The notes beneath the pieces are model-generated. The model did no database searches, was not told the DNA's origin, and was given only the letters and a program-made list of their open reading frames with translations. Shown in pieces: positions 4,972 through 20,294 of a stretch of DNA of 21,611 nucleotides. Made by a program: the position numbers and the translations under genes. Location: positions 1-21,611 of the IMG/VR virus record IMGVR_UViG_3300032293_002138. One strand, given 5' to 3'. The stretch's first letter is position 1. Each line of letters begins with the position of its first letter. The DNA comes from a virus.

Positions 4972-6014
4972 TCTTCATCCTTTGACAGTGCACTATTATA
5001 CGCTTCATCTATTATCTTGGCAAGCATTTGCTTGTCGATTGACTTCTCGTTAATGGTTCCAAGTTCCTCATGTAGTAACTGTAGAGTGTCCTTGTGTACG
5101 TCCACCGCAACCAGTTCAGGGTTTGCGCTAACTTCCTCGGTGACAGCCAATTCCGCCACACCCGCCTCATAGAACTTATCCATGTATTTCTCAAAAGGCG
5201 CAGCCTTAGTTCGCTTCTTGACAAAAATCTTGACGTAGCAATCCTTGAATGTCGAATAGTCCAATTTTTGCGGTTCGTCTTCATTATAGTCAAACGTATA
5301 GAAAAGTTTTCTAGTATTCTGGATGAATACAAGTTCTCTAGACGAAAAATCAAATACGTGGAATCCTTTCGGCTCCCATACATCCGAGAAAGCCATCTGA
5401 TACTGCGTACCCAGGTAATGAATATTATCACGACTAGACTTAACATGATAATGACCGGTGAGTACATAATCAAACTTGTCAAAGTGTTTTGGGTCATATC
5501 CTTGCTCTATAAAAATCCCTCGAATGCTCTGGAAGCCACACAATTCAAGGTGTCCCAACAGAACACTGCATGTGGTTTCTGAAATAAATTTTGCTGCGGC
5601 TTCCTCGTTCTCTGGGTTGATCCATGGTAATAGTGCGACACAGCCAGCTGTCGTGTTTATTTCAACTGGCTCAGAATATATCTCCCAGTTAGCATATTGA
5701 GATACCAATTCATCCAGAGAATTTACTCTATTGTTGTTTTTGTAATAAGTATCATGGTTGCCACAAATTGCAATACACTTGATTCCCATCTCTCTAAGAG
5801 GTTCAAGAAATCTTGTTCTTACCTGATTGAGAGTTTTAAAATTTACATACTTGCGGCGATCAAAAACATCTCCTAGATGAAAAATGGTTTTAATGTTGTT
5901 TTCCTTTATATAAGAAAATAACTGTTCTTCAAAGAACTTTAAAAAATATTCAAGAACGATAGGTGAATCGCCCTTGTACCCAAAATGGGTATCATTAAGA
6001 ATGATGGATTTCAT
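4968..6014 (-). CDS. 47: Recombination nuclease subunit gp47 (Mre11/SbcD-like)
   Basis: Nuclease partner of gp46. All metallophosphoesterase motifs are present in order in the 348-residue protein: L-N-D-T-H-F-G (residues 7-12 region, D8 and H10), G-D-V-F-D-R (D49), G-N-H-D (N86, H87), L-G-H-L-E (H155), and G-H-Y-H (H188, H190). Length is close to T4 gp47 (339). The ATG at 6014 lies inside the end of gmd (20-base overlap) and has no obvious Shine-Dalgarno sequence, so translation is probably coupled to gmd. In T4 the gene upstream of 47 on this side is the alpha-glucosyltransferase gene; here gmd occupies that place. Confidence 0.96.
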
Positions 6015-7062
6015 ATTTTGAATGGTTGTGTTGTTTTGTTGGTGTCATGTGCTTTATCATAAACTCTTTACGTGCGAGTTCCATATCATGGTCAACCATC
6101 ATTCTTACTAAACCATCAATGTCTACTTTGGGCTTCCATCCAAGCTGTCGCTTGGCCTTTTCTGGATTGCCGAGAAGTTGATCTACCTCTGCTGGACGGA
6201 AATACCGTTCATCGGTTACAATATATTGTTCATAGTTTTTTAGACCAGCGTAGGAAAAAGCCTTTTCACAAAATTCTCTCACAGATATCATATTGCCTGT
6301 AGCCACAACATAATCATCCGGGGTATCTTGCTGTAGCATCAGCCACATGGCTTCTACGTAATCGCCTGCATAACCCCAGTCACGCAAAGCATCCATGTTT
6401 CCGAGAACAAGGTTTTTTTGAAGACCTTGGTAGATTCTTCCGATAGCCCGAGTAATTTTTCTTGTAACAAATGTTTCGCCTCTGCGGGGACTTTCGTGGT
6501 TGAAGAGAATACCACATGAGGCATGCAAACCGTAGCTTTCCCGGTAGTTAATCGTTAAATGGTGTCCATATACCTTGGCACATCCATACGGAGAACGTGG
6601 ATAAAATTTGGTGTTTTCTGTTTGAGGTACTTCTTGTACCTTGCCATACATTTCGCTGCTTGAAGCCTGGTAATATCTAATCTGTTTTCCCGACCGATAC
6701 TGATGTTCTTTTGTTGCTTCCAACATATGTAATGTACCTATACCGTCTATCTGGCCAGTGTAAACTGGCATATCAAAAGATACCTTAACATGGCTCTGGG
6801 CACCTAAATTATAAACTTCATCGGGATTGGTTTTTTCAAAAATATTATAGATGCTATTATAATCACTCAAATCTCCGTAATGGAGAAAAAATGTTTTATT
6901 ATAAACCTCTGGATTTTGGATATGGTGTTCCAGACGAGCCGTGTTAAAAGAAGAAGAACGGCGGATTATACCATGCACCGAATATCCTTTAGATAAAAGA
7001 AAATCTGCAAGATAACTTCCATCTTGCCCAGAAATTCCAGTAATTAGCGCACTTTTATTCAT
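5995..7062 (-). CDS. gmd: GDP-mannose 4,6-dehydratase
   Basis: Converts GDP-D-mannose to GDP-4-keto-6-deoxy-D-mannose using bound NADP(H). This is the first committed step to GDP-L-fucose, GDP-D-rhamnose, GDP-perosamine and others. The 355-residue short-chain dehydrogenase has the Rossmann motif [11 protein letters not shown] (8-18), the GMD hallmark R-R-S-S-S-F-N-T (34-41), S-S-S-E-M-Y-G (134-140) and the catalytic Y159-G-C-A-K163. The sequence is full-length and intact. Its ATG overlaps the gp55 stop (ATGA) and its end overlaps gene 47, so it is woven into the essential operon. Base composition is nearer to the replication genes than to the AT-rich island. No GDP-fucose synthase follows in the window; two fucosyltransferase genes lie upstream at 17.5-19.1 kb. 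Confidence 0.96.
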
Positions 7063-7622
7063 ATATCCAATACATCCTTTTTAGTTTTTGTTTTTCTTTT
7101 TACTTTTTTTGGTGAAAGCATTTCGTCAAATCTTTCCATATCGAGATCGGTCAAACCAAAAAAATCTCTTCTTCCTATGTCAACACCGGCATATATTTCG
7201 TTAAACCAGTTATGAAAATCTTTATCGTTTTTTTGTTCTGCAAACTTATACTGAGTATACTTTTCTCTTTTTTCTTTATTGATTATCCTCACAAAAGAAA
7301 ACCAGCAAACCTGGGTTAAATAGCCGAATGGGCTATTAGATTTGCTGGGATCAAAATTATCAATATAAGTAATGCAGTTTAATACCGCATCAGAAACCAT
7401 TTCTTCTCTATATGGGTAATTTGCAAAATTTGGTCTATAGGAAAGTCTGGATGCTATCTTAAGCACACATTCACCTATAAAATCTGGAAGTTTTGGTTTT
7501 TTTCTTCCAGCATTTTCGGCTTCTGATACTTTTTTCTTATATTCAACTAATGCATCGTATAATTCTTGATTACTTACATAATCTGCATCAGAAGCTTTTT
7601 TTCTCTTTTTTACTTTTTTCAC
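7059..7622 (-). CDS. 55: Late-transcription sigma factor gp55
   Basis: Gp55 is the diminutive sigma factor that directs host RNA polymerase to phage late promoters, working with the gp45 clamp. The 187-residue length equals that of T4 gp55 (185). Shared features, from recall of T4, are the N-terminal [11 protein letters not shown] helix (15-25), Y-R-E-E-M-V-S-D-A (71-79), an I-D-N-F-D-P-S-K core near 87-94, and [18 protein letters not shown] (about 101-118), which is the sigma region 2-like DNA-melting segment. A very basic leader (K-K-V-K-K-R-K-K) and a basic tail flank it. Start is a GTG at 7622 without a visible Shine-Dalgarno sequence. Its stop overlaps the gmd start. Confidence 0.9.
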
Positions 7623-7656
7623 AATAGTATTATACTTTCATTTCATCAGAATTCAA
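7622..7656 (-). promoter_or_regulatory. Candidate sigma70-like promoter in front of gp55
   Basis: On the reverse strand, TTGAAT (7656-7651) and TATAAT (7634-7629) are separated by 16 bases. Standard spacing puts the transcript start at or next to the GTG of gp55, which would make that mRNA leaderless. The match is good, but the sequence is AT-rich enough for chance hits, so this is tentative. If real, gp55 could be expressed independently of the sugar island upstream. Confidence 0.3.
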
Positions 7657-8304
7657 GTGCTTATTTAATAGTTTTGTGGCCTTTTCTATGTGAGCTTTTC
7701 CATGAAAACCAAAACATTCTTCTATAACATGATCATTAGAACATTGTATTTCTATAGAAAAATTTTTTGCCACCTCATAAGGGGCAAAATTACATCCATT
7801 TACTTCAAATTGTTTTCTATAATTATGACAAATTGTAATATCTTCATTAAATATTACTTCTGGAATATTTTCGCATAAGTCTAATAACTTTTTAGATCTT
7901 AATGAAAAACCACCATTACCGATGAATTCATCATGAGGGGAAATAGTTTTAAAAAAATTTTTAGGCCATGGAGCTCCAATATAATCATAATTAAAAAAAC
8001 TATTTTTAAATTTATTTGGATTGCAAATAAATCCATCTGCTTGCATAAACAACGCAAACTCTGTATCTATAAAGTTAGAAATATTATATATACAAAATTT
8101 TTGATACTCTCTATAATTTAATTTTTTATTTAATTTTATTATATTTGATATTTTGCTGGAATTGTTACTATGAGTAAAATGAGTTATTTTGGCAAAACTT
8201 CCCAATTTATTCATTTTTTTTATTATATTTTCATTTTTATCATAGTCTTCTCCAGTACCATCACACATAACCAAAGTAACATTTGACAAATTTAATTTTG
8301 TCAT
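7630..8304 (-). CDS. DUF5672-family protein, putative glycosyltransferase
   Basis: The 224-residue protein matches the DUF5672 pattern found in capsule and O-antigen clusters: N-V-T-L-V-x-C-D-G (8-16), F-M-Q-A-D-G-F (86-92), Y-I-G-A-P-W-P (108-114), G-N-G-G-F-S-L-R-S-K (129-138), and N-E-D (153-155). The Q-A-D and N-E-D acids are placed like the metal- and base-type acids of GT-A transferases. Biochemical activity of the family is poorly established, so glycosyl transfer is an inference. It is the last gene of the AT-rich island, 7 bases before gp55, and shares the extreme AT bias of its upstream neighbours. ATG at 8304; stop TAA at 7632-7630. Confidence 0.8.
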   Translation of the reverse strand: MTKLNLSNVTLVMCDGTGEDYDKNENIIKKMNKLGSFAKITHFTHSNNSSKISNIIKLNKKLNYREYQKFCIYNISNFIDTEFALFMQADGFICNPNKFKNSFFNYDYIGAPWPKNFFKTISPHDEFIGNGGFSLRSKKLLDLCENIPEVIFNEDITICHNYRKQFEVNGCNFAPYEVAKNFSIEIQCSNDHVIEECFGFHGKAHIEKATKLLNKHLNSDEMKV

Positions 8305-8317
8305 ATATAAAAAATAT

Positions 8318-9253
8318 TTATCTATTATTTTTTAACCAAGTTTCTAAATTTATTTTTGGTACCCATCCGAGTTCTTTTTTAGCCTTATTATTATCAGCTA
8401 AAGTTACTCTAGATTCCCCAGATCTTGGGGGAATATAAACAATATTGTCACTTATAATTTTTGCAATTTCATTTATAGAATAATTTTTACCTGTTCCTAT
8501 ATTATATATTTCTCCAAATTCATATAGTTTTTGTTTACAATTATTGATCTGCCATTTGTCAAATACTTTTGTTGCTGCTAAAATATTTGCTTCAACAACA
8601 TCAGACACATGTGTAAAATCTCTTCTTTGTTCCCCATCACCAACTATAGTAAGAGGTTCATTATTTTTATTTTGTCTTTGAAAAATACCAATAACAGGTG
8701 CATATTGACCTTTTATGGGCTGTCTTTCACCATATACGTTAAAATATCGAAATATGACAGTCTCAAGACCATAAAGCTTTGAATACATTTTACAAAATTC
8801 TTCTCCTGCAATTTTTGATACAGAGTATGGATTCAAACAATCATTAATCATATCTTCCTTTAAAGGAGGGTCATTTTTTAAACCATATGCAGCGGATGTA
8901 GAAGAGTACACCAATCTTTTTACTTTATATTTTCTGGAAAGTTCTAAAATTGTTGTTGTTCCCAAAACATTTGCTTCAACTGCTTTTAAAGGATTTTCTA
9001 TACAGGGTTGTATCCTTGCTTCCGCTGCTATATGAAAAACAACATCTGGTTTGTGTTTTTCAAAAACTAAAGAACAATTTTTATAATCGCATATATCATA
9101 TTTGTAATTATTTGCTTTATCGTTCCAATAAAATTGGTCGTGTGCGTCTGACGATTCGTTATCAATTACAGTAACATTGTGTCCATCGGCAATTAAACGA
9201 TCAACTAGATTAGAACCAATAAAACCAGCGCCACCAGTGATTAAATATTTCAT
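8318..9253 (-). CDS. NAD-dependent nucleotide-sugar epimerase (UDP-sugar 4-epimerase-like)
   Basis: A 311-residue extended short-chain dehydrogenase. The Rossmann motif is G-G-A-G-F-I-G-S (7-14), the adenine-binding acid is in V-I-D-N (29-32), the catalytic serine/threonine is in Y-S-S-T-S-A-A-Y-G (116-124), and Y143-S-V-S-K147 is the catalytic pair. R-Y-F-N-V-Y-G and G-D-G-E-Q-R-R-D-F-T-H-V follow. These fit the GalE / UDP-GlcNAc 4-epimerase branch, which would supply UDP-Gal or UDP-GalNAc(-type) donors. It lacks features of GDP-L-fucose synthase, so it is unlikely to complete the gmd pathway. Exact substrate cannot be read from the sequence. It starts one base after the stop of the upstream transferase and is well placed to feed the GT7-like enzyme. 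Confidence 0.88.
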   Translation of the reverse strand: MKYLITGGAGFIGSNLVDRLIADGHNVTVIDNESSDAHDQFYWNDKANNYKYDICDYKNCSLVFEKHKPDVVFHIAAEARIQPCIENPLKAVEANVLGTTTILELSRKYKVKRLVYSSTSAAYGLKNDPPLKEDMINDCLNPYSVSKIAGEEFCKMYSKLYGLETVIFRYFNVYGERQPIKGQYAPVIGIFQRQNKNNEPLTIVGDGEQRRDFTHVSDVVEANILAATKVFDKWQINNCKQKLYEFGEIYNIGTGKNYSINEIAKIISDNIVYIPPRSGESRVTLADNNKAKKELGWVPKINLETWLKNNR

Positions 9254-9254
9254 A

Positions 9255-9983
9255 TTATACCTCTATGTAATTTACATTATCAAAAACAAAAAAACCTTTA
9301 TCCCTATGCTCCATAACCGATCCGTGTATGAAAGAATTTATCTGAAGTTTTGAACTATTATGGTGTTTTATACCGGCAGATAAAATATTTCCACCAGAAT
9401 ACAAACAATAATATTTTTTACAACTATGCAAAATATCTGCATAATGTTTCAAACTATCTACTTCCAGTGTATTATTTATAGTATTTTTTAAAGTTATTGT
9501 ATTTAAATTTTTAAACTTTATTAAAAAAATATTTTTATTTTCTTCCATCATTTCATTTATTTTTTTATATAAATTATTTTCGTTATAAAATTTATTAACA
9601 CCATTTTTTAATAAAGATATGGCAGATAAATCTACTAAAGTATATTCAGAATAATTTTGTAAAAAATTTGGTTTATAGTAAATATCAGGATATCTATTTT
9701 GTGGATAAAAGTCGTGTGTTATTTCATTATAAGAAATAATATTATCTGTTGTTTTTAGTGGAAGATCTCCCCGGCAAGAACCAGCATTAATATCGCCATT
9801 ATCTATTCCACTTACGTATGGATTGCATCCCCAAACAAAATCATATATTTCATTGTTGCGATAAGTATTTTTTGAACTTATATAAAATTTTATATTTTTT
9901 TCAGTATATAAACGAGGCAGAGTTGAATATTGTAAATTGTCTCCAAGACCGCCCCATGGCTGTGATAAAATTACTTTATTCAT
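9255..9983 (-). CDS. Putative GT-B glycosyltransferase (GT9/heptosyltransferase-like)
   Basis: A 242-residue protein that opens with S-Q-P-W-G-G-L-G-D-N-L-Q-Y-S-T-L-P (7-23). This is the glycine-rich N-terminal loop seen in heptosyltransferase-like and related capsule transferases (G-G-L-G-D pattern). Near the C-terminus, Y-S-G-G-N-I-L-S-A-G-I resembles the donor-binding loop of GT-B enzymes, which in these families has S/T-G-x-x-x-x-A. It is shorter than canonical GT9 proteins (about 320-350 residues), so assignment beyond a GT-B-like fold is weak. It starts inside the end of the upstream FkbM-type methyltransferase gene (8-base overlap). Confidence 0.65.
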   Translation of the reverse strand: MNKVILSQPWGGLGDNLQYSTLPRLYTEKNIKFYISSKNTYRNNEIYDFVWGCNPYVSGIDNGDINAGSCRGDLPLKTTDNIISYNEITHDFYPQNRYPDIYYKPNFLQNYSEYTLVDLSAISLLKNGVNKFYNENNLYKKINEMMEENKNIFLIKFKNLNTITLKNTINNTLEVDSLKHYADILHSCKKYYCLYSGGNILSAGIKHHNSSKLQINSFIHGSVMEHRDKGFFVFDNVNYIEV

Positions 9984-10660: not shown

Positions 10661-10981
10661 TTATTTTTTAAAAAAATTTAAATCATTTATACCTTTATCA
10701 TCAATATAAACATCTGCAAAAGGTTTTCCTAAAACAATTCTATGGTATTTGGCTCCCCAATTATCTAGTTGGTTTTTAGTCTGCTCAAAACAGGCTTCAT
10801 AAGCTTTGCTAGGATTGTCTTGGCTTCTTCTCATTCCTCTTGCCGTAAAGTATACTATGGTGTGACCATTTTCATATAAAGAATTTATTTTTTTTATTCT
10901 TTCATTAAATGGTTTGGCATTTTCATAATCTCCATCTGTTTTGGTGCAAATTGTGCCGTCAATATCTATAACATAAATCAT
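10661..10981 (-). CDS. Small HAD-family phosphatase
   Basis: A 106-residue HAD hydrolase with all four motifs: D6-I-D8-G-T (nucleophile and acid/base aspartates), T46 in F-T-A-R, K86 in L-G-K-P, and D94-D95 in Y-I-D-D. It is a minimal, capless version like those in capsule gene clusters. I start it at the ATG 10981, which overlaps the talC stop (ATGA). A longer frame would need a TTG at 10993 and would overlap talC further. In the heptose-activation pathway a HAD phosphatase (GmhB) removes the distal phosphate after the kinase step. This protein could play that part for the sugar made here, but it is far shorter than GmhB and its substrate is not known. Confidence 0.85.
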   Translation of the reverse strand: MIYVIDIDGTICTKTDGDYENAKPFNERIKKINSLYENGHTIVYFTARGMRRSQDNPSKAYEACFEQTKNQLDNWGAKYHRIVLGKPFADVYIDDKGINDLNFFKK

Positions 10982-11652
10982 TGGCTTCTCCAATTTTTAA
11001 AATCTTCTAAAAATTTATTAACCGAAGATGTAGTTTGTGGATGTGTGTATAATTGTTTTATCACAGATAATCCTGTGGTAACAATATGTGCACCATTATT
11101 CCATGAGTCTAAAACATCAAATGGGGTTCTTATACTGCCAGCAATAATTTTTGTATCACTTTTATTTTGATCAATAAATGAACTCGTATTTTTTAAAACA
11201 ATATTTGGATTACCTCCAATATCTTTTAATCTTGCATAAAATAAAGACACATATTTTGCCCCAGCAAAAGAAGCCATGTTTAATTGGCTTTCTGTGTAGC
11301 AGCATGTACAATTTACATTTATACCATTTTTAGATAGAACTTTTATCGCTTTTAGTTCTTCATAACCTACAGGTATTTTGATATATAGATCATTACAATA
11401 AGTTTTTAACTTATTGTTTAAATTTTTTGCTTCTAAAACAATGTCTTCAAACTTTGTTGAAAAGATTTCAACACTAAAACTTAAATTATTATTTCCACAA
11501 TATTTTGCTAAATTTATGATTAAATTATCAAAATCGCCTTTGGGTTCTTTTGCTATAATTGAAGGGTTTGTGGTTACACCTTGGATAATACCCATTTCAT
11601 TGGCATCAATAATTTCGTTTAAATTTGCCGTATCTATAAAAAGTTGTTTCAT
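10978..11652 (-). CDS. talC: Transaldolase / fructose-6-phosphate aldolase, TalC family
   Basis: A 224-residue TIM-barrel aldolase of the small TalC/FSA group. It has the start F-I-D-T-A-N (5-10), V-T-T-N-P-S-I (26-32), the Schiff-base lysine K92 in Y-I-K-I-P-V, N-V-N-C-T-C-C-Y near 112-119, the barrel segment F-A-G-A-K-Y-V-S, and A-G-S-I-R-T-P. Such enzymes transfer dihydroxyacetone units or cleave fructose 6-phosphate. talC is a well-known auxiliary metabolic gene of cyanophages, where it is thought to push the pentose phosphate pathway. Here it is embedded between a cupin and a HAD phosphatase in a sugar-activation cluster, so it may instead feed or drain a sugar-phosphate pool used for glycan synthesis. 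Whether it is a transaldolase or an aldolase cannot be decided. Confidence 0.92.
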   Translation of the reverse strand: MKQLFIDTANLNEIIDANEMGIIQGVTTNPSIIAKEPKGDFDNLIINLAKYCGNNNLSFSVEIFSTKFEDIVLEAKNLNNKLKTYCNDLYIKIPVGYEELKAIKVLSKNGINVNCTCCYTESQLNMASFAGAKYVSLFYARLKDIGGNPNIVLKNTSSFIDQNKSDTKIIAGSIRTPFDVLDSWNNGAHIVTTGLSVIKQLYTHPQTTSSVNKFLEDFKNWRSQ

Positions 11653-11653
11653 A

Positions 11654-12079
11654 TTATTCCGTTTCTTTAAAAATATATGTTTTTCCGTCTTCTACAATAT
11701 GCGAATCAGAATCATCATCTTTTGATGACCATTCTATTATAACTGTATCTTCCAGAGCAATTCGCATATGCATTAACCCTTTAGGAATATGGATCACATC
11801 ACCTGGATTTAAAATTAATGATTTATTTTTTGCTCTACCAATTCTCAATCCTAATTTTAACTTTCCGGATTCTATATAATACCACTCTTCCTTGTTTACG
11901 TGATACTCCATACTACTCTGTGTCTTTGCCTTCATAAAAATTTTTTTCAAAGCAAATACTTCTGTAGATTCTATCGTTGTTATATTTCCCCAATATTTTT
12001 CTTTAAAATCAATAATTTTTTTAATTTTTGGTAATTTTTGAATTCCGTATTCATTGTCCATAATATTTTTTAAATCCAT
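11654..12079 (-). CDS. Cupin, sugar-phosphate isomerase-like
   Basis: A single-domain cupin of about 141 residues. Cupin motif 1 is visible as S-M-E-Y-H-x-x-K-E-E-W-Y-Y-I-x-S-G, with the metal-type histidine and glutamates. Motif 2 is N-P-G-D-V-I-H-I-P-K-G-L-M-H. The overall pattern resembles the C-terminal cupin of type II mannose-6-phosphate isomerase / mannose-1-phosphate guanylyltransferase, and stand-alone cupins in capsule clusters. Mannose 6-phosphate isomerisation would link to gmd, but epimerase or regulatory roles are equally possible. Start choices are a TTG at 12091, ATG 12079 and ATG 12061. I prefer 12079, which overlaps the AraD-like gene by 29 bases. Confidence 0.78.
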   Translation of the reverse strand: MDLKNIMDNEYGIQKLPKIKKIIDFKEKYWGNITTIESTEVFALKKIFMKAKTQSSMEYHVNKEEWYYIESGKLKLGLRIGRAKNKSLILNPGDVIHIPKGLMHMRIALEDTVIIEWSSKDDDSDSHIVEDGKTYIFKETE

Positions 12080-12740
12080 TTTTTCTTTCAAAGTGTTTTT
12101 TAAATAAACTATTTTGGTTTTTACTATTTGCTATAGTACCACATATATTAAAACTGTAAAGAGCAATTTTTGCAATTTCTTCCAGAACAATTGAACATTC
12201 TAAAGCGTGATCTGGATTATTTGAAAAACTTACACTTCCATGAGATGGTATTAGTATACTTGGAATTTTTAAAGGATCTGTATCTGTACTTTTATACCAT
12301 TTTACAATTTTTTTACCTAAATTGGTTTCGTAATCGTCCAATTCATTTTCTTCCAATTCTTCGCATACAGGAATATCTCCATCATAATAGTCTGCGTGGG
12401 TTGTTCCTAATAGTTTTATAGGCATTTTTGCTTGAGCCCAAGCTGTAGCATACGTCGAATGCGTATGTATTATAGAAGAAATAGAATTAAAATTTTTGTA
12501 AATTTCTAAATGTATTTTCAAATCTACGGATGGTTTTTTGCCCTGGAGTAATTCACCGTTTTCTTTTAATACACATATATTTTTTTTACTCAATAAATTA
12601 AATGGAATTCCTGAAGGTTTTATATAAATTAAACCTTCTTTTTTTATGCTAGCATTTCCCCATGTTAATTTTACTAAATCATTTTTAATTAACGATTGGT
12701 TTAAAAATATGCATTTATCTAATGTATTTTGACATATCAT
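12051..12740 (-). CDS. araD: L-ribulose-5-phosphate 4-epimerase-like class II aldolase (AraD)
   Basis: AraD interconverts L-ribulose 5-phosphate and D-xylulose 5-phosphate by retro-aldol chemistry with a bound metal. At 229 residues this is the length of the E. coli enzyme (231). Landmarks agree with those I recall: T-W-G-N29-A-S, K41-P-S-G, S-V-D73, the metal pair H92-T-H94-S, G-T-T-H-A-D117-Y, S-H167-G, then K-K-H216-F and the C-terminal K-K-Y-Y-G-Q, a hallmark of AraD rather than of fuculose-phosphate aldolase. The gene overlaps the kinase gene by 26 bases. AraD genes usually sit in arabinose-use operons. Here it stands with a RpiB-nucleotidyltransferase and a kinase, so a biosynthetic role toward an activated sugar is inferred. 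Confidence 0.9.
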   Translation of the reverse strand: MICQNTLDKCIFLNQSLIKNDLVKLTWGNASIKKEGLIYIKPSGIPFNLLSKKNICVLKENGELLQGKKPSVDLKIHLEIYKNFNSISSIIHTHSTYATAWAQAKMPIKLLGTTHADYYDGDIPVCEELEENELDDYETNLGKKIVKWYKSTDTDPLKIPSILIPSHGSVSFSNNPDHALECSIVLEEIAKIALYSFNICGTIANSKNQNSLFKKHFERKNGFKKYYGQ

Positions 12741-13557
12741 TATAAAAATTTTCTAAAGAACAATTATTTTTATCTTTTAAAGATATTACATAAGCTGCCC
12801 ACAGATTTGCAAAATCACAACACTCTGTTGCTATATATGCAGCACAAAAAGCATCTCCAGCTCCAATAATATTTTTTACATTTGTTTTATAGCTTTTAAA
12901 GTGGGTAGTTAATTTATTTTTTATACTTCTGCAACCAGAAGAACCCATAGTTACGATATAATTTTTATCTGAATCATAAATTATATTATCAAATTCTTCT
13001 TCATTTAATATCGCCGTATCATAATTTTTATAATTAAAATAATTATTTTTTTTATCAGACATCTGTGCTGATACAAATATTTTATTTTTTACATTTTTAA
13101 GATTTTTTAATAAAGATTCTTGAACAACACCACATCTATAATCATTAATAAAAATTACATCATAATTATTATCAAAAAAATTATAATTTTTAAAATTTAT
13201 TTTTTCTGTATTGCAATCGTTTATTTGCAGATATTTGTATCTTTCATTTTCTTTTATTATCCAATATCTACTTTTTTTATTTGTTTTATTTCCAATATTA
13301 ATTGTTGTAGTACAACAATCTTCCAATAAATGTTCATCTATTTGACTTATGGATGTGACAAAAGTAACATTACACCCAAGAATTTTTAAAAATTTTGTTG
13401 TATTGGCGGTTCCACCCAATTCTTTGTAAGAATCAATCAGATTTCCTTTTAATGTTGGTGATTCTAAAGAAATTCCTGTAGCATTTATATTAATACTTTC
13501 ATCCAGAATAGTATCGCCTATTACTAAAATATTTTTATTTTTTATTTTTTTTCGCAT
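12715..13557 (-). CDS. PfkB/ribokinase-family sugar kinase, HldE kinase-domain-like
   Basis: A 280-residue ribokinase-fold kinase. It opens like the HldE (RfaE) kinase domain: I-L-V-I-G-D-T-I-L-D (10-19), S-L-E-S-P-T-L-K-G near 30-38, and L-G-G-T-A-N-T-T (47-54). It ends with the catalytic I-G-A-G-D-A motif, D235 being the base. HldE kinase phosphorylates C1 of D-glycero-D-manno-heptose 7-phosphate to the 1,7-bisphosphate. In E. coli the kinase is fused to a nucleotidyltransferase, whereas here that second domain is carried by the adjacent gene, fused to RpiB. The kinase start lies within the fusion gene's end (16-base overlap). The substrate could be a pentose, hexose or heptose phosphate. 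Confidence 0.88.
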   Translation of the reverse strand: MRKKIKNKNILVIGDTILDESININATGISLESPTLKGNLIDSYKELGGTANTTKFLKILGCNVTFVTSISQIDEHLLEDCCTTTINIGNKTNKKSRYWIIKENERYKYLQINDCNTEKINFKNYNFFDNNYDVIFINDYRCGVVQESLLKNLKNVKNKIFVSAQMSDKKNNYFNYKNYDTAILNEEEFDNIIYDSDKNYIVTMGSSGCRSIKNKLTTHFKSYKTNVKNIIGAGDAFCAAYIATECCDFANLWAAYVISLKDKNNCSLENFYNDMSKYIR

Positions 13558-14405
13558 GTAGATAAAGATTTAATTTTTTTTAAAATATTTGTAGTCGAGT
13601 AATTGTTTACCAATGGATATATTTTAACATCTATAAAATTTGGTATATTATCACGGATTCTCACTTCTTCAGCGGTCCACTCAGATCCTTTTACCAAAAC
13701 TGACGGATTTAATGTGTTATATAGCGTTTTTAGTTCAGTCTCATCATTAAAAATTAAAACTTCATCCACGTATTCTATTGCTTCTAAAATTTTTTTTCTA
13801 TCTATTTGAGTATTTATTGGTCTATTTTCACCTTTTAATTGTTTGACTCTTTCGTCAGAATCTATAGCTACAACTAGATAATCTCCTTGTTTTTTTGAAA
13901 ATTTTAATAATTCGATGTGTCCTTTATGTATAACATCAAAAACTCCGTTAGTTAAAACAATTCCTTTATGTTTGTCTATTTTTTCAACTCTTTTTACATG
14001 CCTACCTTCAGCCCATTTTTCATTTAACCAAGCATCTACTAATTGTTTCATAGTATCATCATCAGTTATCCAGGATCCTAAACATAAAACATTTGTATTA
14101 TTGTGTTCTTTGGATTTTACAGCTGTTAACATATTATGGCCCAAAGCAGCTCTAACATTTTTAAATCTATTTGCAACAATACACATACCCATTCCGGTTC
14201 CACATATTAAAATTCCAAAATCACATTCTTTATGTGATACAATTGTTGCTAATTGTGAAGCATAATCGACGTAATCAACACTGCTTTCGCTTTCATGTGG
14301 GCCTAGATCGATAACACTGTATTTTTTTTCTTTTAAATAAGTTTTTATAATTTCTTTTGATTTTATACCGTTATGATCAGATGCTATTGTTATAATTTTA
14401 TTCAT
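13542..14405 (-). CDS. Bifunctional RpiB isomerase - HldE-type nucleotidyltransferase fusion
   Basis: A 287-residue, two-domain protein in one intact frame. Residues 1-145 are a complete RpiB/LacAB sugar-phosphate isomerase: I-A-S-D-H-N-G (7-13), G-I-L-I-C68-G-T-G-M-G-M with the catalytic cysteine, H-N-N-T-N-V-L (101-107), and V-D-A-W-L plus G-R-H-x-x-R-V-E at its end. Residues about 149-285 are a cytidylyltransferase-like domain with G-V-F-D-V-I-H160-K-G-H163, the nucleotide-binding HxGH motif, N-R-P-I near 194-197, V-K-G near 238-240 and S-T-T-N-I-L-K-K-I near 270-278, as in the HldE C-terminal domain. I chose the ATG at 14405 because it gives the standard RpiB N-terminus and an 8-base overlap; a GTG at 14432 would add nine residues. 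The fusion implies that both steps act on one pathway. Confidence 0.92.
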   Translation of the reverse strand: MNKIITIASDHNGIKSKEIIKTYLKEKKYSVIDLGPHESESSVDYVDYASQLATIVSHKECDFGILICGTGMGMCIVANRFKNVRAALGHNMLTAVKSKEHNNTNVLCLGSWITDDDTMKQLVDAWLNEKWAEGRHVKRVEKIDKHKGIVLTNGVFDVIHKGHIELLKFSKKQGDYLVVAIDSDERVKQLKGENRPINTQIDRKKILEAIEYVDEVLIFNDETELKTLYNTLNPSVLVKGSEWTAEEVRIRDNIPNFIDVKIYPLVNNYSTTNILKKIKSLSTCEKK

Positions 14406-14988
14406 TTGTTGTTTTATAAACTCCATATGCACATTTAGCTTGATGAAAGCCTATTTCTCCATTAAATGAATAAACTTTTACACAATCACCAAAATAATTT
14501 TTATAATCTTCTAAGCTAAAACTATAAGGGTGTTCATTGTTGGTAGGTAAATCAATGGGTTCAAAAAATTTTATAATTTTTGAATGTTTTTTACATATTT
14601 CTATTAATTTATCTGGATCCTGGACGTGTTGCATTAAATTAAAAATCCAAACTTCATCTACGTATGGAAAGTTGCAAGATTCTGCTTTTTCTTTTATTAT
14701 TTCTATATTTTTATTTTCATATAGATAATCTATCCCTTCGTATGGCGTTGGTTCAATAATATAAGATTTACTATAGTTTGTACAAAAAAGCAATCCTGCA
14801 ATTCTAGCTGGACCTATTTCTACTACAGATTTGCCAGATAAATTTGTATCAATATTTAAATATTTAAAATAATAAGGATAGCTATTTTTATAAGATTCAT
14901 AAGATTTTTCTACAGAATCTTGTATATGATATATTTTTTCACCTATTTGAGCGGATTCCCATCTATTGTCATCTATTGGAATTTTCAT
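14398..14988 (-). CDS. Class I SAM-dependent methyltransferase, putative
   Basis: A 196-residue protein with a class I methyltransferase core. The SAM-binding motif I is V-V-E-I-G-P-A-R (55-62), an acidic residue E79 follows strand 2, and V-W-I-F-N-L-M-Q-H-V-Q-D-P-D (113-126) matches the post-II region of sugar and small-molecule methyltransferases. The C-terminal H-P-Y-S-F-S-L-E-D-Y (153-162) is common in capsule-cluster members. The substrate is unknown; a glycan or sugar-nucleotide O-methylation is the natural guess from context. It lies between a GT-A transferase (3 bases upstream) and the RpiB fusion (8-base overlap). Confidence 0.75.
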   Translation of the reverse strand: MKIPIDDNRWESAQIGEKIYHIQDSVEKSYESYKNSYPYYFKYLNIDTNLSGKSVVEIGPARIAGLLFCTNYSKSYIIEPTPYEGIDYLYENKNIEIIKEKAESCNFPYVDEVWIFNLMQHVQDPDKLIEICKKHSKIIKFFEPIDLPTNNEHPYSFSLEDYKNYFGDCVKVYSFNGEIGFHQAKCAYGVYKTTNE

Positions 14989-14991
14989 TTT

Positions 14992-15873
14992 TTAATCTTG
15001 TGTATTTTTTAATAATTTATTTTTATATAACTCGTATCTCTGTTTATTTATTTTAACATTTAAAATATCTACATTTTCTATTAATTTTTTATAAACTGCA
15101 TATCTTTCCAATGCCCAATTAGCATAGTGTTTATCAACAAATTCATATCCTTGTTTAAAAATTTTAGAACCACTGCCTATTCCAGCAAAATGAATGTACC
15201 AGTCACCGCAGTCTAAATCTTCATTTAATTCCATATATTTATTGACCCTATTCCCCATATTATTTGGGCCACCCACATCATCGTGATTAAAATTAAAAAT
15301 TTTTCCTCCATTTTTTAATATTAAAAATGAAACATAATCAAAAAAATCTAAAATTGGTTGGTTTTCAAAATTCCGACCACATATAGAGGGTGTCAATTCA
15401 TTAATATCTGTTATATTAATTTTATTTTTTTTAAATCCAAAAAAACAAGTCGCAACTACATCTGGCATATGTCTAATGTCATCTCTATTATTTAAATTAT
15501 ATTTATATGGTCTCGGAGGCCCCACCAAAGAATAATCATTATTTAATTTATCTTTTATTTTAGATATACATTCTTTTTTAAAAATTAAATCACTATCAAA
15601 ATGAATGATATTATCGCATGTTGAATCTACTAATATTGCTTTTGCAAAAATAGCAGCTGTCCCATAATGGCCTTTTTTATAAAAAAAATTTATTTCACTT
15701 GTAGGCTCTATAACAATTGGTTTTATTAATTTAAAATCTTTTAATTGATCCAAATCTTCTTCTCTGCCATAGACATGTACAATATCATCGTGGTATTTAT
15801 AAAAACTGTTTAAACAATTTTTTAAAATGTCAGCACAATTATATGCTTCGGTAAATATAAAATAGTCACTCAT
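14992..15873 (-). CDS. GT-A-type glycosyltransferase, putative
   Basis: A 293-residue protein with F-T-E-A-Y-N-C-A-D near residues 7-14 and the metal-binding H-F-D-S-D-L-I-F (91-98; DSD at 93-95), typical of GT-A enzymes. A conserved-looking F-A-G-I-G-S-G-S region occurs near the C-terminus after W-Y-I-H. I do not recognise the exact family. There are no membrane segments, so it is cytoplasmic and soluble. Its ATG overlaps the preceding GT2 stop in an ATGA arrangement, suggesting that the two transferases act on the same chain. Confidence 0.75.
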   Translation of the reverse strand: MSDYFIFTEAYNCADILKNCLNSFYKYHDDIVHVYGREEDLDQLKDFKLIKPIVIEPTSEINFFYKKGHYGTAAIFAKAILVDSTCDNIIHFDSDLIFKKECISKIKDKLNNDYSLVGPPRPYKYNLNNRDDIRHMPDVVATCFFGFKKNKINITDINELTPSICGRNFENQPILDFFDYVSFLILKNGGKIFNFNHDDVGGPNNMGNRVNKYMELNEDLDCGDWYIHFAGIGSGSKIFKQGYEFVDKHYANWALERYAVYKKLIENVDILNVKINKQRYELYKNKLLKNTQD

Positions 15874-16616
15874 AGACTTATCAACCTTTCATTTATTGGT
15901 TTTTGTTTTATTTCTTCTGCACACTGTTCTTGTTTTTTAACATTGATTTTATCATCACTAATAGGATTGACTCTATTATATACATACAATATTTCTTTTA
16001 CGAATCGTGTTCTTTCTCTAGACATTTCTAACATTGGATACATAAATGCGCAGTCGCCAGCCATATCATAATATTCATTAAATTTATTTTTTAAAGCTTC
16101 TTCTGGAATAGCCAAAAATAATTTAGCTCTAAAAGTTCTTAAATGAGATGCCAACCATTTAGAATATTTTTTAAAAGTTCCACTGTGTTTAATTTCTTCC
16201 GGATAATCGTGGTATAAGTGACTTACATTCTGGTAAGGGTAATGGCAGTATGTACCATAGGTCATCCAAACATCGGAACTGGTATAATAATTATTTAAAG
16301 TTGATAAAACATTATTATTTGCCAACCAATCGTCTAAATCTACAGTCACAATAATGCTATTTGGATCTGACACAGAAACACCAAATTTAGTATTTTCTAT
16401 TTGATATTTTCGTTTTTCGTTTTTATATACGGCGATTTTGTCTGGATATTTTTGTTCATATTTTTTTAAAATTTTGTGCGTTTCATCTGTGCTTTGGGCA
16501 TCTATGCATATTATTTTAAAATCATCATAATCTTGCGATAACATTGAGTTTAAAGATGCTGAGACCCAAGATTCGCAATTGTATCCACAACAAACAAATG
16601 TATATGTATTACGCAT
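15870..16616 (-). CDS. Family 2 glycosyltransferase
   Basis: A 248-residue GT2 protein. The N-terminus Y-T-F-V-C-C-G-Y-N-C-E-S-W-V (5-18) leads to the S-M-L-S-Q-D-Y segment (24-30), I-D-A-Q-S-T-D-E-T (38-46) for nucleotide binding, and the metal site V-D-L-D-D-W (92-97). Length covers only the GT-A domain plus a short tail, with no transmembrane helices. The ATG at 16616 lies 8 bases inside the end of the GT7-like gene. Donor and linkage are not predictable from these motifs. Confidence 0.86.
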   Translation of the reverse strand: MRNTYTFVCCGYNCESWVSASLNSMLSQDYDDFKIICIDAQSTDETHKILKKYEQKYPDKIAVYKNEKRKYQIENTKFGVSVSDPNSIIVTVDLDDWLANNNVLSTLNNYYTSSDVWMTYGTYCHYPYQNVSHLYHDYPEEIKHSGTFKKYSKWLASHLRTFRAKLFLAIPEEALKNKFNEYYDMAGDCAFMYPMLEMSRERTRFVKEILYVYNRVNPISDDKINVKKQEQCAEEIKQKPINERLISL

Positions 16617-17568
16617 TTAAAAAATATTCCTTTTTAATTTTTATTAATTTTTTAATTTCATCATAACTTAAATTTACATAATTATTTTTTATATTAACCA
16701 TTTTGTCATGTTCTAAATTTTTATTAATTTCTATTAAATGTGCTTGATGATATAAGTTATTATTTTCAGCATATTCTGCTGAACCAAAATGGTTATTCCA
16801 ATGTTTGTGAAATTCTATTTTTTTATATAAACATTCTAATTTAAACCAAAATAAAGCATCTTCAGGGGCATATCCGTAAAATAACTCACTATCAAAGCCT
16901 CCAACCTCATAAAATAAAGTTTTTGGAACAAGAGTCGATCCACCAACAGCTCCGGGCATATTTTTAGTTGTTTTTGAATAATATTCTTTATCAAGATCTG
17001 GAATTAAATTATTGCTATTATTTTGTAATAATTCTGTATCTTTAGTTGAAAGATTTAAAACCATTTTATTTGAATATGGTTGTATCCAGCTTTTGCAATT
17101 TACAATTAAAGATTCTAAATTTTTAAAAAATAAATTAGGAGTAAGTAAATCGCAGTCATGAAATAAATACCATTCGGAGCTTGGAAAAGCTTTTACACTA
17201 CAATTAAACACCAACCCACGTGAATATAAATCATTTGTATTAGAATTTTTTAAATTTAAAAAACCATAATCAATTTTGTTATTCAAACAGTATAATTTAT
17301 GTTTTGGTCGGTAATCATGCTCACAAACAATAATATTGTACTCATCTGGATTACTTGAATATTTTATACTATTTTTTAAAAAATTTAATGTTGTATGAAG
17401 ATATTTTGTTCTATCTTTTACACCTATAATAATATTATATTTTTTATTTTGTTTATTATAAATAAATTTTTGATCTAAAACATATTTAAAATTATTTTTA
17501 TAAAAATTAGTATATAATAATTTTATATCATCATATGACAAATTTTTAACTTTTAATTCTGTTTGCAT
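16609..17568 (-). CDS. GT7-like galactosyltransferase (beta-1,4-GalT C-domain pattern)
   Basis: A 319-residue protein. The first half is a GT-A domain with I-I-I-G-V-K-D-R (46-53) and the metal motif F-H-D138-C-D140. The second half shows the GT7 C-terminal pattern: G-A-V-G-G-S-T (206-212), G-G-F-D-S-E-L-F (223-230), then Y-G-Y-A-P-E-D-A (231-238), corresponding to the G-W-G-x-E-D acceptor-binding signature of beta-1,4-galactosyltransferases. An UDP-Gal or UDP-GalNAc donor is therefore plausible, and the 4-epimerase gene at 8.3 kb could supply it. A short related stretch, N-L-S-Y-D-D-I-K near the start and N-L-S-Y-D-E-I-K near the end, repeats within the protein. Linkage specificity is inferred, not shown. 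Confidence 0.8.
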   Translation of the reverse strand: MQTELKVKNLSYDDIKLLYTNFYKNNFKYVLDQKFIYNKQNKKYNIIIGVKDRTKYLHTTLNFLKNSIKYSSNPDEYNIIVCEHDYRPKHKLYCLNNKIDYGFLNLKNSNTNDLYSRGLVFNCSVKAFPSSEWYLFHDCDLLTPNLFFKNLESLIVNCKSWIQPYSNKMVLNLSTKDTELLQNNSNNLIPDLDKEYYSKTTKNMPGAVGGSTLVPKTLFYEVGGFDSELFYGYAPEDALFWFKLECLYKKIEFHKHWNNHFGSAEYAENNNLYHQAHLIEINKNLEHDKMVNIKNNYVNLSYDEIKKLIKIKKEYFLNA

Positions 17569-18337
17569 ATTCTTTTATTCCTGTTAAAAAATAATCATCA
17601 AATGAAAAATTTAAAGATTTTGCTATTTCATAATTTTTACTTACATATGGAAACATTTCAAAATATAAATTTTCTGTTAAAGTATTTATATTAAAATTTT
17701 CATTATAAAAAATAATTCCTCGTTCATCAAATATAGACTTTATATAATCATCACCAGCATATATTGGAACGGTTCCAGTCATAAAACAATCTAAAATTTT
17801 TTCTGAAAAATATCCTGGGATGATATCATTTTCTATGGCAAAAGAAAAAAAATAATCTTTTAATCCGGTTAACTTATTTTCTATTGGATTTATACCAATG
17901 CCAAAACAATCAATATTTTTTTTATACTTGTTATAAACAGACACCCGATATTTTTGCATTGGTGTCTGTTGTTTTAAACTTGTTATAAACGAACACAATT
18001 TATTTTTTTTATATAAACCGGGAGAATTAATCCAAGATTTAAAAGGAGGTGGTGTGTGAATAATTTTTTCATTAATTAAATTTTTATTAAAAGATATAAT
18101 TAAATTTGGTTCCAAATAATTTATAATATCTGCATATTTAACATTTAATAAATATTCTGACTCTATTAAATATAAAATTTTAAATTTGTCGGTATTTATT
18201 TTTTTACATGCATCTATGTATATTACCACATCAGCATTATCTAAATTATCAATTTTTTCCCAAAAATTATTATTTGGAATATAATTATTCCATGTAAATG
18301 GATCAAAATACGTTGGAGCCACATATGCATTTATCAT
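17546..18337 (-). CDS. Alpha-1,3-fucosyltransferase, GT10 family
   Basis: A 263-residue GT10-type enzyme (GDP-fucose donor, GT-B fold). The donor-binding region is clear: C-S-F-I-T-S (115-120), Y-R-V-S-V-Y-N-K-Y (130-138), C-F-G-I-G (144-148), K-D-Y-F-F-S-F-A-I-E-N (160-170), Y-F-S-E-K-I-L-D (176-183) and G-T-V-P-I-Y-A-G-D (188-196). These are the hallmark order of alpha-1,3/4-fucosyltransferases. I start at ATG 18337, which shares a base with the GT11 stop (TAATG) and has GGGA upstream. A longer frame begins at 18376 with two more in-frame ATG/GTG choices inside the GT11 gene. It is a soluble bacterial-type form without the heptad tail of Helicobacter enzymes. Confidence 0.87.
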   Translation of the reverse strand: MINAYVAPTYFDPFTWNNYIPNNNFWEKIDNLDNADVVIYIDACKKINTDKFKILYLIESEYLLNVKYADIINYLEPNLIISFNKNLINEKIIHTPPPFKSWINSPGLYKKNKLCSFITSLKQQTPMQKYRVSVYNKYKKNIDCFGIGINPIENKLTGLKDYFFSFAIENDIIPGYFSEKILDCFMTGTVPIYAGDDYIKSIFDERGIIFYNENFNINTLTENLYFEMFPYVSKNYEIAKSLNFSFDDYFLTGIKEYANRIKS

Positions 18338-19125
18338 TAAATGATTTCCCATTTTTTGCAATAAATATCTGACCAATTTTTTGGCATGTTTTGAGAATCA
18401 CCAAACCATTTTGAAGGCGCTATAGTTTTTTTGGAATTCGAGAGCCACGATCCCCACCAACTAAAAGAGCTGTTAGCTAGGATGTGGTAATCACACATTG
18501 TCATCAGACACATGTCAATGTATGAACTTGTATTTTCAACAAATAAAATTGGTCTTTTTAAATTTAAAAACATTTTTTTACTTATTTCAATATCGTCACT
18601 AAAAATATAAATCAATAAATCATCAGGTAATTTGTTCAATGCTTCCTTATAATATTCAATAGAACATACCGGATGATTATGCTGTTGATTAACATAGTCG
18701 CCAAGTCTTATATGAAGAGATATAACTTCTTTTTTAGTTATACTGCGAATATCCAAAGCTTTTTGATATATTTCTTTTTTAAAACAAAACTCTTTTAAAA
18801 GTTCTTCTCTATAATTTTCAAAATATTTTTCACTTTGAAAATAACCACATATATCAGTATCATCCAATATGCCAAATATTCCAGGATTATAACAAAAATT
18901 ATGTTCCATTGCTTTAAATTTTGGACTATAATTTGTGCTATCTTTTGCTGATAAATTTTCAAAACAATCATTTAGTGATAAATTTTTATATTCATCATTT
19001 GATTTATTTTGCATTGGTATTCCAAAATCATAGCCTTTTCTATTTGCTATAGAAAATAAAGTTGCATACTGAAACATTTGGTTACCGAGCCGACCATAAT
19101 TTCCAAGCTTATTAAACGTAATCAT
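18337..19125 (-). CDS. Alpha-1,2-fucosyltransferase, GT11 family
   Basis: A 262-residue GT11 enzyme transferring L-fucose from GDP-fucose, typically to C2 of galactose. Family landmarks are all present: N-Y-G-R-L-G-N-Q-M-F-Q-Y-A (9-21), G-Y-F-Q-S-E-K-Y-F (94-102), the donor-binding H-I-R-L-G-D-Y (138-144), F-S-D-D near 175-178, and the C-terminal A-N-S-S-F-S-W-W-G-S-W-L (217-228). Length is close to the usual 280-300 residues. A GAGG Shine-Dalgarno lies 7-8 bases ahead of the ATG at 19125, which also overlaps the GT25-like stop (ATGA). With the GT10 gene directly downstream, this makes a two-fucosyltransferase pair. Confidence 0.95.
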   Translation of the reverse strand: MITFNKLGNYGRLGNQMFQYATLFSIANRKGYDFGIPMQNKSNDEYKNLSLNDCFENLSAKDSTNYSPKFKAMEHNFCYNPGIFGILDDTDICGYFQSEKYFENYREELLKEFCFKKEIYQKALDIRSITKKEVISLHIRLGDYVNQQHNHPVCSIEYYKEALNKLPDDLLIYIFSDDIEISKKMFLNLKRPILFVENTSSYIDMCLMTMCDYHILANSSFSWWGSWLSNSKKTIAPSKWFGDSQNMPKNWSDIYCKKWEII

Positions 19126-19757
19126 AAATCCTCTGAATCTCTATTTTCTAAAGGTTTATCTGTAAAAAATTGCCATTTATTTGCGGAATCTCTTTCATCA
19201 GCTTGATAAAAAAATGGGTTATTTGGGGTATACACCCTAAAACGATGTTGTAAACCAGCTGCAGCAACATCCCACGGTGTTTTTAGATTGTAAATAAAAT
19301 GTTTATTTGCCATGGCCATATTATTTTTATAGTTTTCACTAATATACAAAATAGCATGAGTAGCTAAAATTCCACTTATTCTTAAATAATTTTCATTATA
19401 TTTTTTTGTTTTATAGTAAATATTTCCATGTGAAACTCCAAGATAAATGCCATCTGCATCATCTGGTATTTCAATAATAGGATTAAAATCCGATGTAAAT
19501 TCTGCATCATCTTCTAATATTAGAAACGGTGTATTTAAATTTTTATCTTTTAAAATATCGAGATGAGATTGACCACATCCAACATAATGGTATATTGTTT
19601 TAGGTGTTCCTTCTGGAGGCTCTATAACTCTAGCGGATTTTCTTATGGTATTTTTAAAACCATAGTTTTTAAATTTATTTTCCATTGCTTCTGCATTTTT
19701 GGTAGCAGAATCTAAATTTATCCATATTACTGGAATTTCACGTAAATCAATTATCAT
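19122..19757 (-). CDS. GT25-like glycosyltransferase
   Basis: A 211-residue protein of the LPS-type family 25: P-V-I-W-I-N-L-D-S (9-17) at the N-terminus, then G-C-G-Q-S-H-L (60-66), and the acidic metal site L-I-L-E-D-D-A-E-F (79-87), the defining motif of this family. This is first in the leftward unit. I use the ATG at 19757. A TTG at 19763 would be in frame, with the GAGG at 19768-19771 closer to it, so the true start may be either. The transcript predicted from the upstream -10 box would begin about 14 bases before this ATG, giving a very short leader. Confidence 0.85.
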   Translation of the reverse strand: MIIDLREIPVIWINLDSATKNAEAMENKFKNYGFKNTIRKSARVIEPPEGTPKTIYHYVGCGQSHLDILKDKNLNTPFLILEDDAEFTSDFNPIIEIPDDADGIYLGVSHGNIYYKTKKYNENYLRISGILATHAILYISENYKNNMAMANKHFIYNLKTPWDVAAAGLQHRFRVYTPNNPFFYQADERDSANKWQFFTDKPLENRDSEDL

Positions 19758-19777
19758 CGTCAATAGACCTCACAGTT

Positions 19778-19805
19778 ATTATAGTTTATTAAAAAATAAA
19801 GTCAA
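19778..19805 (-). promoter_or_regulatory. Leftward sigma70-like promoter of the sugar island
   Basis: On the reverse strand, TTGACT (19805-19800) and a perfect TATAAT (19783-19778) are separated by 16 bases. Transcription would start near 19771, just at the GAGG Shine-Dalgarno sequence of the GT25-like gene. It is the only strong promoter I see ahead of the long leftward gene series, and its box form is that of host sigma70 (early) promoters rather than the T4 late TATAAATA type. Confidence 0.65.
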
Positions 19806-19820
19806 ATATATTTATTTGAC
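19801..19820. repeat. Inverted repeat spanning two divergent -35 boxes
   Basis: A perfect 8-base inverted repeat GTCAAATA / TATTTGAC with a 4-base centre. Each arm carries the TTGAC core of one -35 element, one facing left and one facing right. The symmetry may simply come from placing two -35 boxes back to back, or it may be an operator where one bound protein would cover both promoters. Confidence 0.6.
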
Positions 19821-19842
19821 ATTATCTAGAGTATACTATAGA
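19816..19842 (+). promoter_or_regulatory. Rightward sigma70-like promoter of uvsY-uvsW
   Basis: TTGACA (19816-19821) is followed after 15 bases by TATAGA (19837-19842). A TATACT lies slightly upstream but too close to the -35. The start would be near 19849, leaving a leader of under 10 bases before the uvsY ATG at 19857. The spacing is one or two bases short of ideal, so the -10 assignment is less certain than the -35. Confidence 0.5.
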
Positions 19843-19856
19843 GTAATCTATAAAAG

Positions 19857-20294
19857 ATGAATCTAGAGAACCTTAAAGAACTTATTACTAAAGACTCTCA
19901 AATAGACTCTACAGAGTTAGGAATAGAGTCTCTTAAGATACCTCAAATACACTCGAAGTATCTTACAATTTTATCAGATGTCAAATTACTTTTGACCAAA
20001 CAACAACACGACTTGGCAATTTTAAAATTGCGCAAGTGGAAAATCTATACAGGTAAAGCCTCACAAGAGGAGTTGGAATCTTGGGGTGAGGAACCCTCTG
20101 ACCTCACTCTCTTGAAGAGTGACGTTGATCAATTTATAGAAGCAGATCCAAAAGTAATTGAGCTAAAAGCAAAAATTGCAGTTAGTGAAATAAAACTGAA
20201 GATGGTTGAGGAATTTTTGCGTTCACTCAATAACAGAAACTTTACCATCAAGTCTGCCATAGAGTGGCATAAAATGATGAACGGCGTGGTCTAA
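19857..20294 (+). CDS. uvsY: UvsY recombination mediator
   Basis: UvsY helps load the phage recombinase UvsX onto single-stranded DNA covered by gp32. The 145-residue protein is near the T4 length (137). It begins with the same pattern as T4 UvsY (M-x-L-E-x-L, then D-S-x-I-D-S-T-x-L at 13-21), has S-K-Y/W-L near 33-36, and in the middle R-K-W-K-I-Y-T-G-K near 59-67, corresponding to the T4 basic Y-Y-S-G region. The helical C-terminus ends with R-N-F-T-I-K-S-A-I-E-W-H-K-M. It precedes uvsW by 7 bases. Together they support recombination-dependent replication, as do gp46 and gp47 on the other strand. Shine-Dalgarno is weak (AAAAG directly before ATG). Confidence 0.88.
   Translation: MNLENLKELITKDSQIDSTELGIESLKIPQIHSKYLTILSDVKLLLTKQQHDLAILKLRKWKIYTGKASQEELESWGEEPSDLTLLKSDVDQFIEADPKVIELKAKIAVSEIKLKMVEEFLRSLNNRNFTIKSAIEWHKMMNGVV

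Follow-up and report, generated by a model that had tools for sequence, protein, structure and literature searches.

Isomerase and nucleotidyltransferase in one frame

Which sugar does a virus activate with a protein that carries an RpiB-type isomerase and an HldE-type nucleotidyltransferase (NT) in a single reading frame? The gene that raises this question lies in a complete IMG/VR virus record of 21,611 bases and 32% GC (the window), within a sugar island flanked by T4-like phage genes for a clamp loader, a sliding clamp, an SbcC-like (gp46-type) nuclease subunit, a late sigma factor and UvsY.

13542-14405, minus strand: RpiB–NT fusion, 287 aa; isomerase domain residues 1-146, NT domain residues 147-287

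The open reading frame (ORF) runs on the minus strand from an ATG at 14405 to a stop at 13544-13542, with an in-frame GTG upstream at 14432. An initial annotation had described two complete domains and a series of motifs in this frame. All of the motifs are present in the translation: Cys68 (in ICGTG), GRHxxR (residues 134-139), HKGH (160-163) and STTNILKKI. The domains are likewise complete, with PF02502 matching residues 5-143 over its full length (profile positions 1-138 of 138; E = 5e-50; 169.4 bits against a cut-off of 24.7) and PF01467 matching residues 151-274 over nearly all of its length (1-130 of 133; E = 1e-18). The fusion passed the RpiB equivalog model TIGR01120 (148.4 against a curated cut-off of 138.65); its NT domain matched the HldE/HldC model TIGR02199 with E = 2.8e-39, below the cut-off (134.2 against 181.5 bits), and HxGH is kept in 37 of 37 aligned rows.

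An AlphaFold model built from 38 fusion sequences (mean pLDDT 87.3, pTM 0.66) contains two compact folds. In Foldseek searches the RpiB domain matched the RpiB structure 3he8 (TMt 0.92) and the NT domain best matched HldC (5xf2; E = 8e-9); among the 50 best rows for the fusion the top TMq was 0.49, and no row covered both halves well. The protein is a complete RpiB-type isomerase and a complete HldE/HldC-type nucleotidyltransferase in one ORF. The NT domain is related to that of HldE, whose kinase also has a relative in the gene next to the fusion, and a kinase–phosphatase–NT logic is common to both systems, but HldE fuses the kinase to the NT, whereas here the isomerase is fused and the kinase is a separate ORF. 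HldC, a stand-alone heptose-1-phosphate adenylyltransferase, has no isomerase domain.

The sugar island also includes the following features:

14398-19763, minus strand: upstream island with GT2, GT10, GT11 and GT25-type glycosyltransferases (Pfam; GT25 and one GT2 below cut-off)
14398-14988, minus strand: ORF in the upstream island, no family match; methyltransferase-like by eye
16609-17568, minus strand: ORF in the upstream island, no Pfam match
8318-9253, minus strand: NAD-dependent sugar epimerase/dehydratase (SDR; PF16363, 3e-62)

A GDP-mannose 4,6-dehydratase (5995-7062; 510 bits against a cut-off of 415) lies between gp47- and gp55-type genes. A promoter scan found no excess of promoters (98, against 105 expected in shuffles).

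Distribution and ancestry of the fusion

We searched for the family with a DNA pattern spanning the Cys, GRH and HxGH motifs at fixed spacing. This pattern identified 45 further IMG/VR contigs (33 loci with a TGT Cys codon and 12 with TGC) and, in its TGT form, three bacterial contigs, from an uncultured Pelagibacteraceae isolate, the alphaproteobacterium SCGC AAA536-K22 and a Taylorbacteria metagenome-assembled genome (MAG). A fourth bacterial copy occurs in genome G1068, from the phylum of the Taylorbacteria MAG (G003); the remaining carriers are denoted G001 and G002. The viral and bacterial counts are lower bounds, as the pattern demands set spacing and motifs and only the TGT form was used on bacteria. 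No match arose in 100 shuffles of the window. At all 48 further loci the fusion is a single in-frame ORF, a few of them truncated by the end of the stretch. This agrees with the intact frame first annotated and rules out a sequencing, frameshift or assembly artefact. The set comprises 38 distinct fusion proteins including that of the window, to which the others are 52–74% identical. Terminase was found in 10 of the 45 further virus records, including 10 of the 12 records of at least 89 kb, a marker by which the remaining records cannot be judged as phage.

In protein-level samples, counting the genome at the centre of each, the fusion was carried by 1 of 297 genomes in the order of G001, 1 of 398 in the phylum of G002, 2 of 379 in the phylum of G003 and 1 of 49 in the class of G1068. 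Among 100 genomes of the G002 phylum, RpiB matches occurred in 47 and TIGR02199 matches in 81, and the two were listed on the same frame in G002 alone. A protein search of INPHARED phages returned 146 partially matching records, none with at least 80% query coverage, and no fusion; 784 PLSDB plasmid records matched, again with no fusion, and the one place reaching at least 80% of the query, H56, is an ordinary kinase–NT HldE. Within INPHARED, PLSDB and the 100 genomes, these results rule out a common housekeeping fusion. A relatives search started from the single fusion protein returned NT relatives only, at 8 loci. No RpiB–NT fusion was seen among PDB chains, and none was found described in a literature search to which most subscription papers and InterPro were external. 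Across these sources, the suggestion that the domain pair is not a described enzyme holds.

The fusions form one group in a tree of RpiB domains (38 fusions and 33 others; support 98/96, from a bootstrap that had not settled) and in a tree of NT domains (37 fusions and 30 others; support 100/100), which fits a single fusion event. Three bacterial copies nest among the viral fusions in both trees, from which G1068 was left out. A separate RpiB-like match was also present in each of the three fusion-bearing bacteria tested, which makes the fusion an additional and dedicated enzyme there.

A conserved set of six genes

Downstream of the fusion the window encodes five further proteins:

12715-13557, minus strand: PfkB-family kinase, 280 aa (PF00294, 2e-11); overlaps the 3' end of the fusion
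12051-12740, minus strand: AraD-like ketose-phosphate 4-epimerase, 229 aa (PF00596, 4e-36)
11654-12091, minus strand: small cupin, 145 aa (PF00190, 1.5e-8)
10978-11652, minus strand: TalC/FSA-type transaldolase, 224 aa (PF00923, 1e-38)
10661-10993, minus strand: HAD phosphatase, EcbF/BcbF-like, 110 aa (TIGR01689, 7e-14, below cut-off; phrog_1238, 5e-33)

Conserved residues mark each protein. All 29 of the distinct kinase rows have the GAGD motif. The AraD-like protein falls below the cut-offs of NF006047 (AraD; 8.5e-65) and TIGR00760 (191.3 against 389.1), and its nearest solved relative is E. coli AraD (1jdi, 5e-46), with HADY and the C-terminal YYGQ aligned; His92, His94, His167 and Asp117 occur in 26 of 26 sequences and the C-terminal Tyr is retained, the His residues being those that bind metal in the epimerase. 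The transaldolase, whose top PDB match is the transaldolase 3r8r (1.6e-38), keeps the Schiff-base Lys92 together with Glu62 and Phe138 in 24 of 24 sequences, the latter two being transaldolase-type rather than aldolase-type residues. The cupin has weak OxdC-type PDB matches and H64 and H108 in 27 of 27, and the HAD protein has DxDxT in all 19 rows with letters at that place (20 rows in total).

Among viral fusions with sufficient downstream sequence, the window included, the kinase that the initial annotation had placed as a separate neighbour lies beside the fusion in 35 of 35 loci, with AraD in 30 of 31, the cupin in 27 of 27, FSA/TalC in 25 of 25, HAD in 21 of 22 and all five in 20 of 22; these counts are drawn from 46 loci, the remainder being too short. 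The exceptions are L046, which has no AraD ORF adjoining the fusion (4573-7744) and whose product might differ from that of AraD-bearing loci, and L057, which has no HAD gene in the sequence covered. The set's functions also surround the fusion, in rearranged order, in the SAR11 genome (FSA, fusion, PfkB, cupin, AraD, HAD) and in two genomes from the same phylum as the Taylorbacteria MAG. The Taylorbacteria contig has AraD, FSA, cupin and PfkB less than 8 kb from the fusion and, by eye, a different HAD-like protein; in G1068 (L070) cupin and HAD appear by eye as one open frame (6320-7420), followed by AraD, FSA, fusion and PfkB, suggesting that the cupin and HAD steps are linked. The G002 contig runs out inside AraD; AraD is found at all four bacterial fusion loci. 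In INPHARED, the PfkB query gave no match and the AraD query matched 19 records, bacterial genome records among them.

Some viral contigs carry additional genes near the set. In L041 a second NT–kinase–cupin trio without an RpiB domain (12270-13752; phmmer matches in L015 and L026) directly follows the six genes, which would fit the making of another activated sugar. By eye, a ketoacyl-ACP synthase III-like protein lies within the sugar island of L033 (11829-12776), and an NAD-synthetase-like protein (L027, 9256-10017) and a NodU-like carbamoyltransferase (L016, 303-1940) lie beside the set.

The gene set bears on the order of reactions. The initial annotation had proposed that the first and last steps of a sugar-activation path were fused, which would favour channelling. 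The NT is probably the last step, as proposed; the conserved neighbours of the fusion include two ketose-phosphate enzymes, a transaldolase and an AraD-like 4-epimerase, and for this reason the isomerase is unlikely to come first. Nor does joining isomerase to NT by itself amount to channelling, since a kinase and a phosphatase must act between them, and both are ORFs separate from the fusion in the loci read. The broader suggestion of a new sugar-activation pathway variant is likely to be right. Neither the conservation of all six genes nor the accompanying GT9 (heptosyltransferase-type) genes figured in the initial annotation.

The isomerase active site departs from RpiB

The fusions share the fold of RpiB/AlsB and its catalytic residues: every one of the 38 distinct fusions retains C68, D10, H11, H101, N102, R135, H136 and R139. 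Beyond the added NT domain, they differ from RpiB/AlsB at two positions. At the site of Arg113 (M. tuberculosis numbering) the fusions carry Trp112, and at that of Gly/Ala12 they carry Asn, each in 38 of 38; the separate RpiBs have Arg at the former and Gly or Ala at the latter, in 33 of 33. In the accessible text of PMC3755991, Arg113 binds phosphate in RpiB, and in that of PMC4783025 it is listed with the positively charged residues that recognise the substrate. According to the same portion of PMC3755991, LacAB, a galactose-6-phosphate isomerase of the same superfamily that takes longer, hexose-phosphate substrates, has Arg113 replaced and uses a different Arg instead. From the change of Arg113 to Trp in all fusions we infer that their substrate is not ribose 5-phosphate but probably a longer sugar phosphate. 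The parts of this system belong to known families; the novelty lies in how the fusion, the exchange of Arg for Trp and the set of six genes come together.

A candidate route to an NDP-heptose

We judge the odds slightly better than even that the fusion serves as a bifunctional enzyme in a phage-encoded pathway to an NDP-heptose other than ADP-glycero-manno-heptose. The reactions, substrate, nucleotide and step order set out here are all inferred. Sedoheptulose 7-phosphate would come from the TalC-type transaldolase and would be epimerised at C4 by the AraD-like enzyme through retro-aldol/aldol chemistry. The RpiB domain, replacing GmhA, would convert the ketose phosphate to an aldose phosphate; the PfkB kinase would phosphorylate O1, the HAD protein would remove the distal phosphate in the role of GmhB, and the NT domain would put a nucleotide, most likely ADP, on the sugar 1-phosphate. 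A GT9-type transferase would then move the sugar to a glycan or protein. The small cupin has no step in this scheme.

Stereochemistry suggests which heptose this might be. Sedoheptulose 7-phosphate epimerised at C4 is D-manno-heptulose 7-phosphate. Known RpiB-family isomerases yield 2R aldoses, so such an isomerase acting on this ketose would give D-glycero-D-galacto-heptose 7-phosphate and hence NDP-D-glycero-D-galacto-heptose. Among seven-carbon sugars, the proposed D-manno-heptulose/galacto-heptose pair would correspond to LacAB's pair of tagatose and galactose.

That last comparison raises a hexose route, from fructose 6-phosphate through tagatose 6-phosphate and galactose 6-phosphate, as with LacAB, to an NDP-hexose. 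LacAB likewise lacks the Arg113 contact, as far as the available text of PMC3755991 goes, and 13 of 38 fusions have Lys at position 42, which counting from a shared Tyr places near LacB Arg39. We nevertheless consider this route quite unlikely: it leaves the transaldolase and the GT9 association described below unexplained, and UDP-galactose is usually obtainable via GalE. LacAB itself consists of two different chains with no NT, and the fusion falls far below the cut-offs of the lacA and lacB models.

A pentose would be the expected product if the epimerase acted as its nearest solved relative, the L-ribulose-5-phosphate 4-epimerase of E. coli, does. D-xylulose 5-phosphate would then give L-ribulose 5-phosphate through the AraD-like enzyme, L-arabinose or L-ribose 5-phosphate through RpiB, and an NDP-pentose through kinase, phosphatase and NT, perhaps for DNA or glycan modification by analogy with the arabinose of phage RB69. 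That the RpiB domain passes its equivalog cut-off agrees with such a route. In RB69, a T4-type phage with its own suspected sugar-activation genes, arabinose is placed on DNA and a SIS-type arabinose-phosphate isomerase gene is suspected, according to the accessible part of PMC6024577; by the same source, the RB69 module differs in that SIS-type isomerase, in its other NT-like proteins and in its arabinose product. We regard the pentose reading as unlikely, because the Arg that holds the pentose phosphate is Trp in every fusion, the transaldolase would be superfluous, and GT9 neighbours together with a heptose-type kinase and NT indicate a seven-carbon sugar.

Evidence bearing on a proposed heptose and its transfer

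Our preferred reading, a heptose pathway distinct from the standard one, has in common with the GmhA–HldE–GmhB pathway four proposed steps, those of an isomerase, a 1-kinase, a phosphatase and an NT. It differs from that pathway in the 4-epimerase, transaldolase and cupin that the set adds and in a GmhA-type isomerase, which was not found in the virus records. For both kinase and NT the nearest models are heptose ones, TIGR02198 (heptose-7-phosphate kinase; 9e-17 for the window's kinase) and TIGR02199, the scores being well below the curated cut-offs for both, and far below for the kinase. GmhA-type SIS_2 genes (PF13580) were found in 0 of 46 virus records, a weak absence given that many are fragments; among the fusion-bearing bacteria, none were found in G003 and G1068, and SIS_2-type genes occur in G001 and G002.

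The viral absence would also suit a simpler scheme, in which the RpiB domain replaces GmhA on sedoheptulose 7-phosphate without epimerisation, ordinary glycero-manno-heptose is the product and the AraD-like gene serves another purpose, as might be read from L046 with its set minus AraD. We hold this to be very unlikely. AraD accompanies the fusion at all but one of the testable viral loci and at all four bacterial ones, and an RpiB-family enzyme would form the 2R rather than the 2S, manno, aldose. Moreover, the SAR11 locus (L066) has GmhA-like and HldE-like genes near the set (12470-13051 and 19240-19998), suggesting two different sugars, that of the set being likely a non-standard one.

Further support for a heptose comes from the glycosyltransferases nearby. 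Known GT9 members are heptosyltransferases. All four bacterial genomes with the fusion have a GT9 gene (PF01075) close to it, and in G002 and G1068 no other GT9 was found. Among the virus records, 11 of 46 have a GT9 at E of at most 0.001, 7 of them over the curated cut-off, at about 6 kb or less from the fusion in 10 and at 15 kb in the eleventh. The combined p for this proximity is about 5e-4 under random placement, assuming one uniformly placed GT9 per record; L015 and L026 share a fusion protein, and dropping L026 brought no change. The closeness may partly be due to shared glycan islands. No GT9 was found in the 8 records with NT relatives, a weak control given that most are short.

By sequence, GT9 is absent from 35 of the 46 virus records, the window's own included, and a structural candidate is present in the window:

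9255-9983, minus strand: predicted GT9-like heptosyltransferase, 242 aa (fold only)

This gene, kept in six other loci, has no PF01075 match at E up to 1. Its AF2 model (pLDDT 74, from an alignment of 7 sequences) gave TibC, WaaC, the Veillonella GT9 structure 3tov and WaaF at Foldseek ranks 1-30. In VIA, WaaC (Z 11.3; rmsd 4.0, 206 aligned) and TibC (Z 11.1; 3.3, 200) were accompanied by NDH-complex chains at Z 9.9, which indicates that proteins outside GT9 have this fold too; the remaining rows were at 7.6 or less. On this model the protein is predicted to be a GT9-like heptosyltransferase. Host waaC is a subject of PMC7530303 in its accessible portion.

Implications

We put forward, as a tentative possibility, that these genes make up a complete, undescribed viral route to NDP-D-glycero-D-galacto-heptose, that dedicated GT9-type transferases attach the sugar to virion proteins or to glycans on the host surface, and that the few bacterial carriers share the viral fusion lineage. 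If true, this would be a second way of making activated heptoses, in which the isomerase has another fold and an epimerase sets the stereochemistry, along a route seen mostly in viruses and rare among the cell genomes sampled. It would give a function to phage genes now under generic or misleading names and would point to particular enzymes for a rare sugar, and it would suggest that some phages produce the sugar donor themselves rather than use that of the host.
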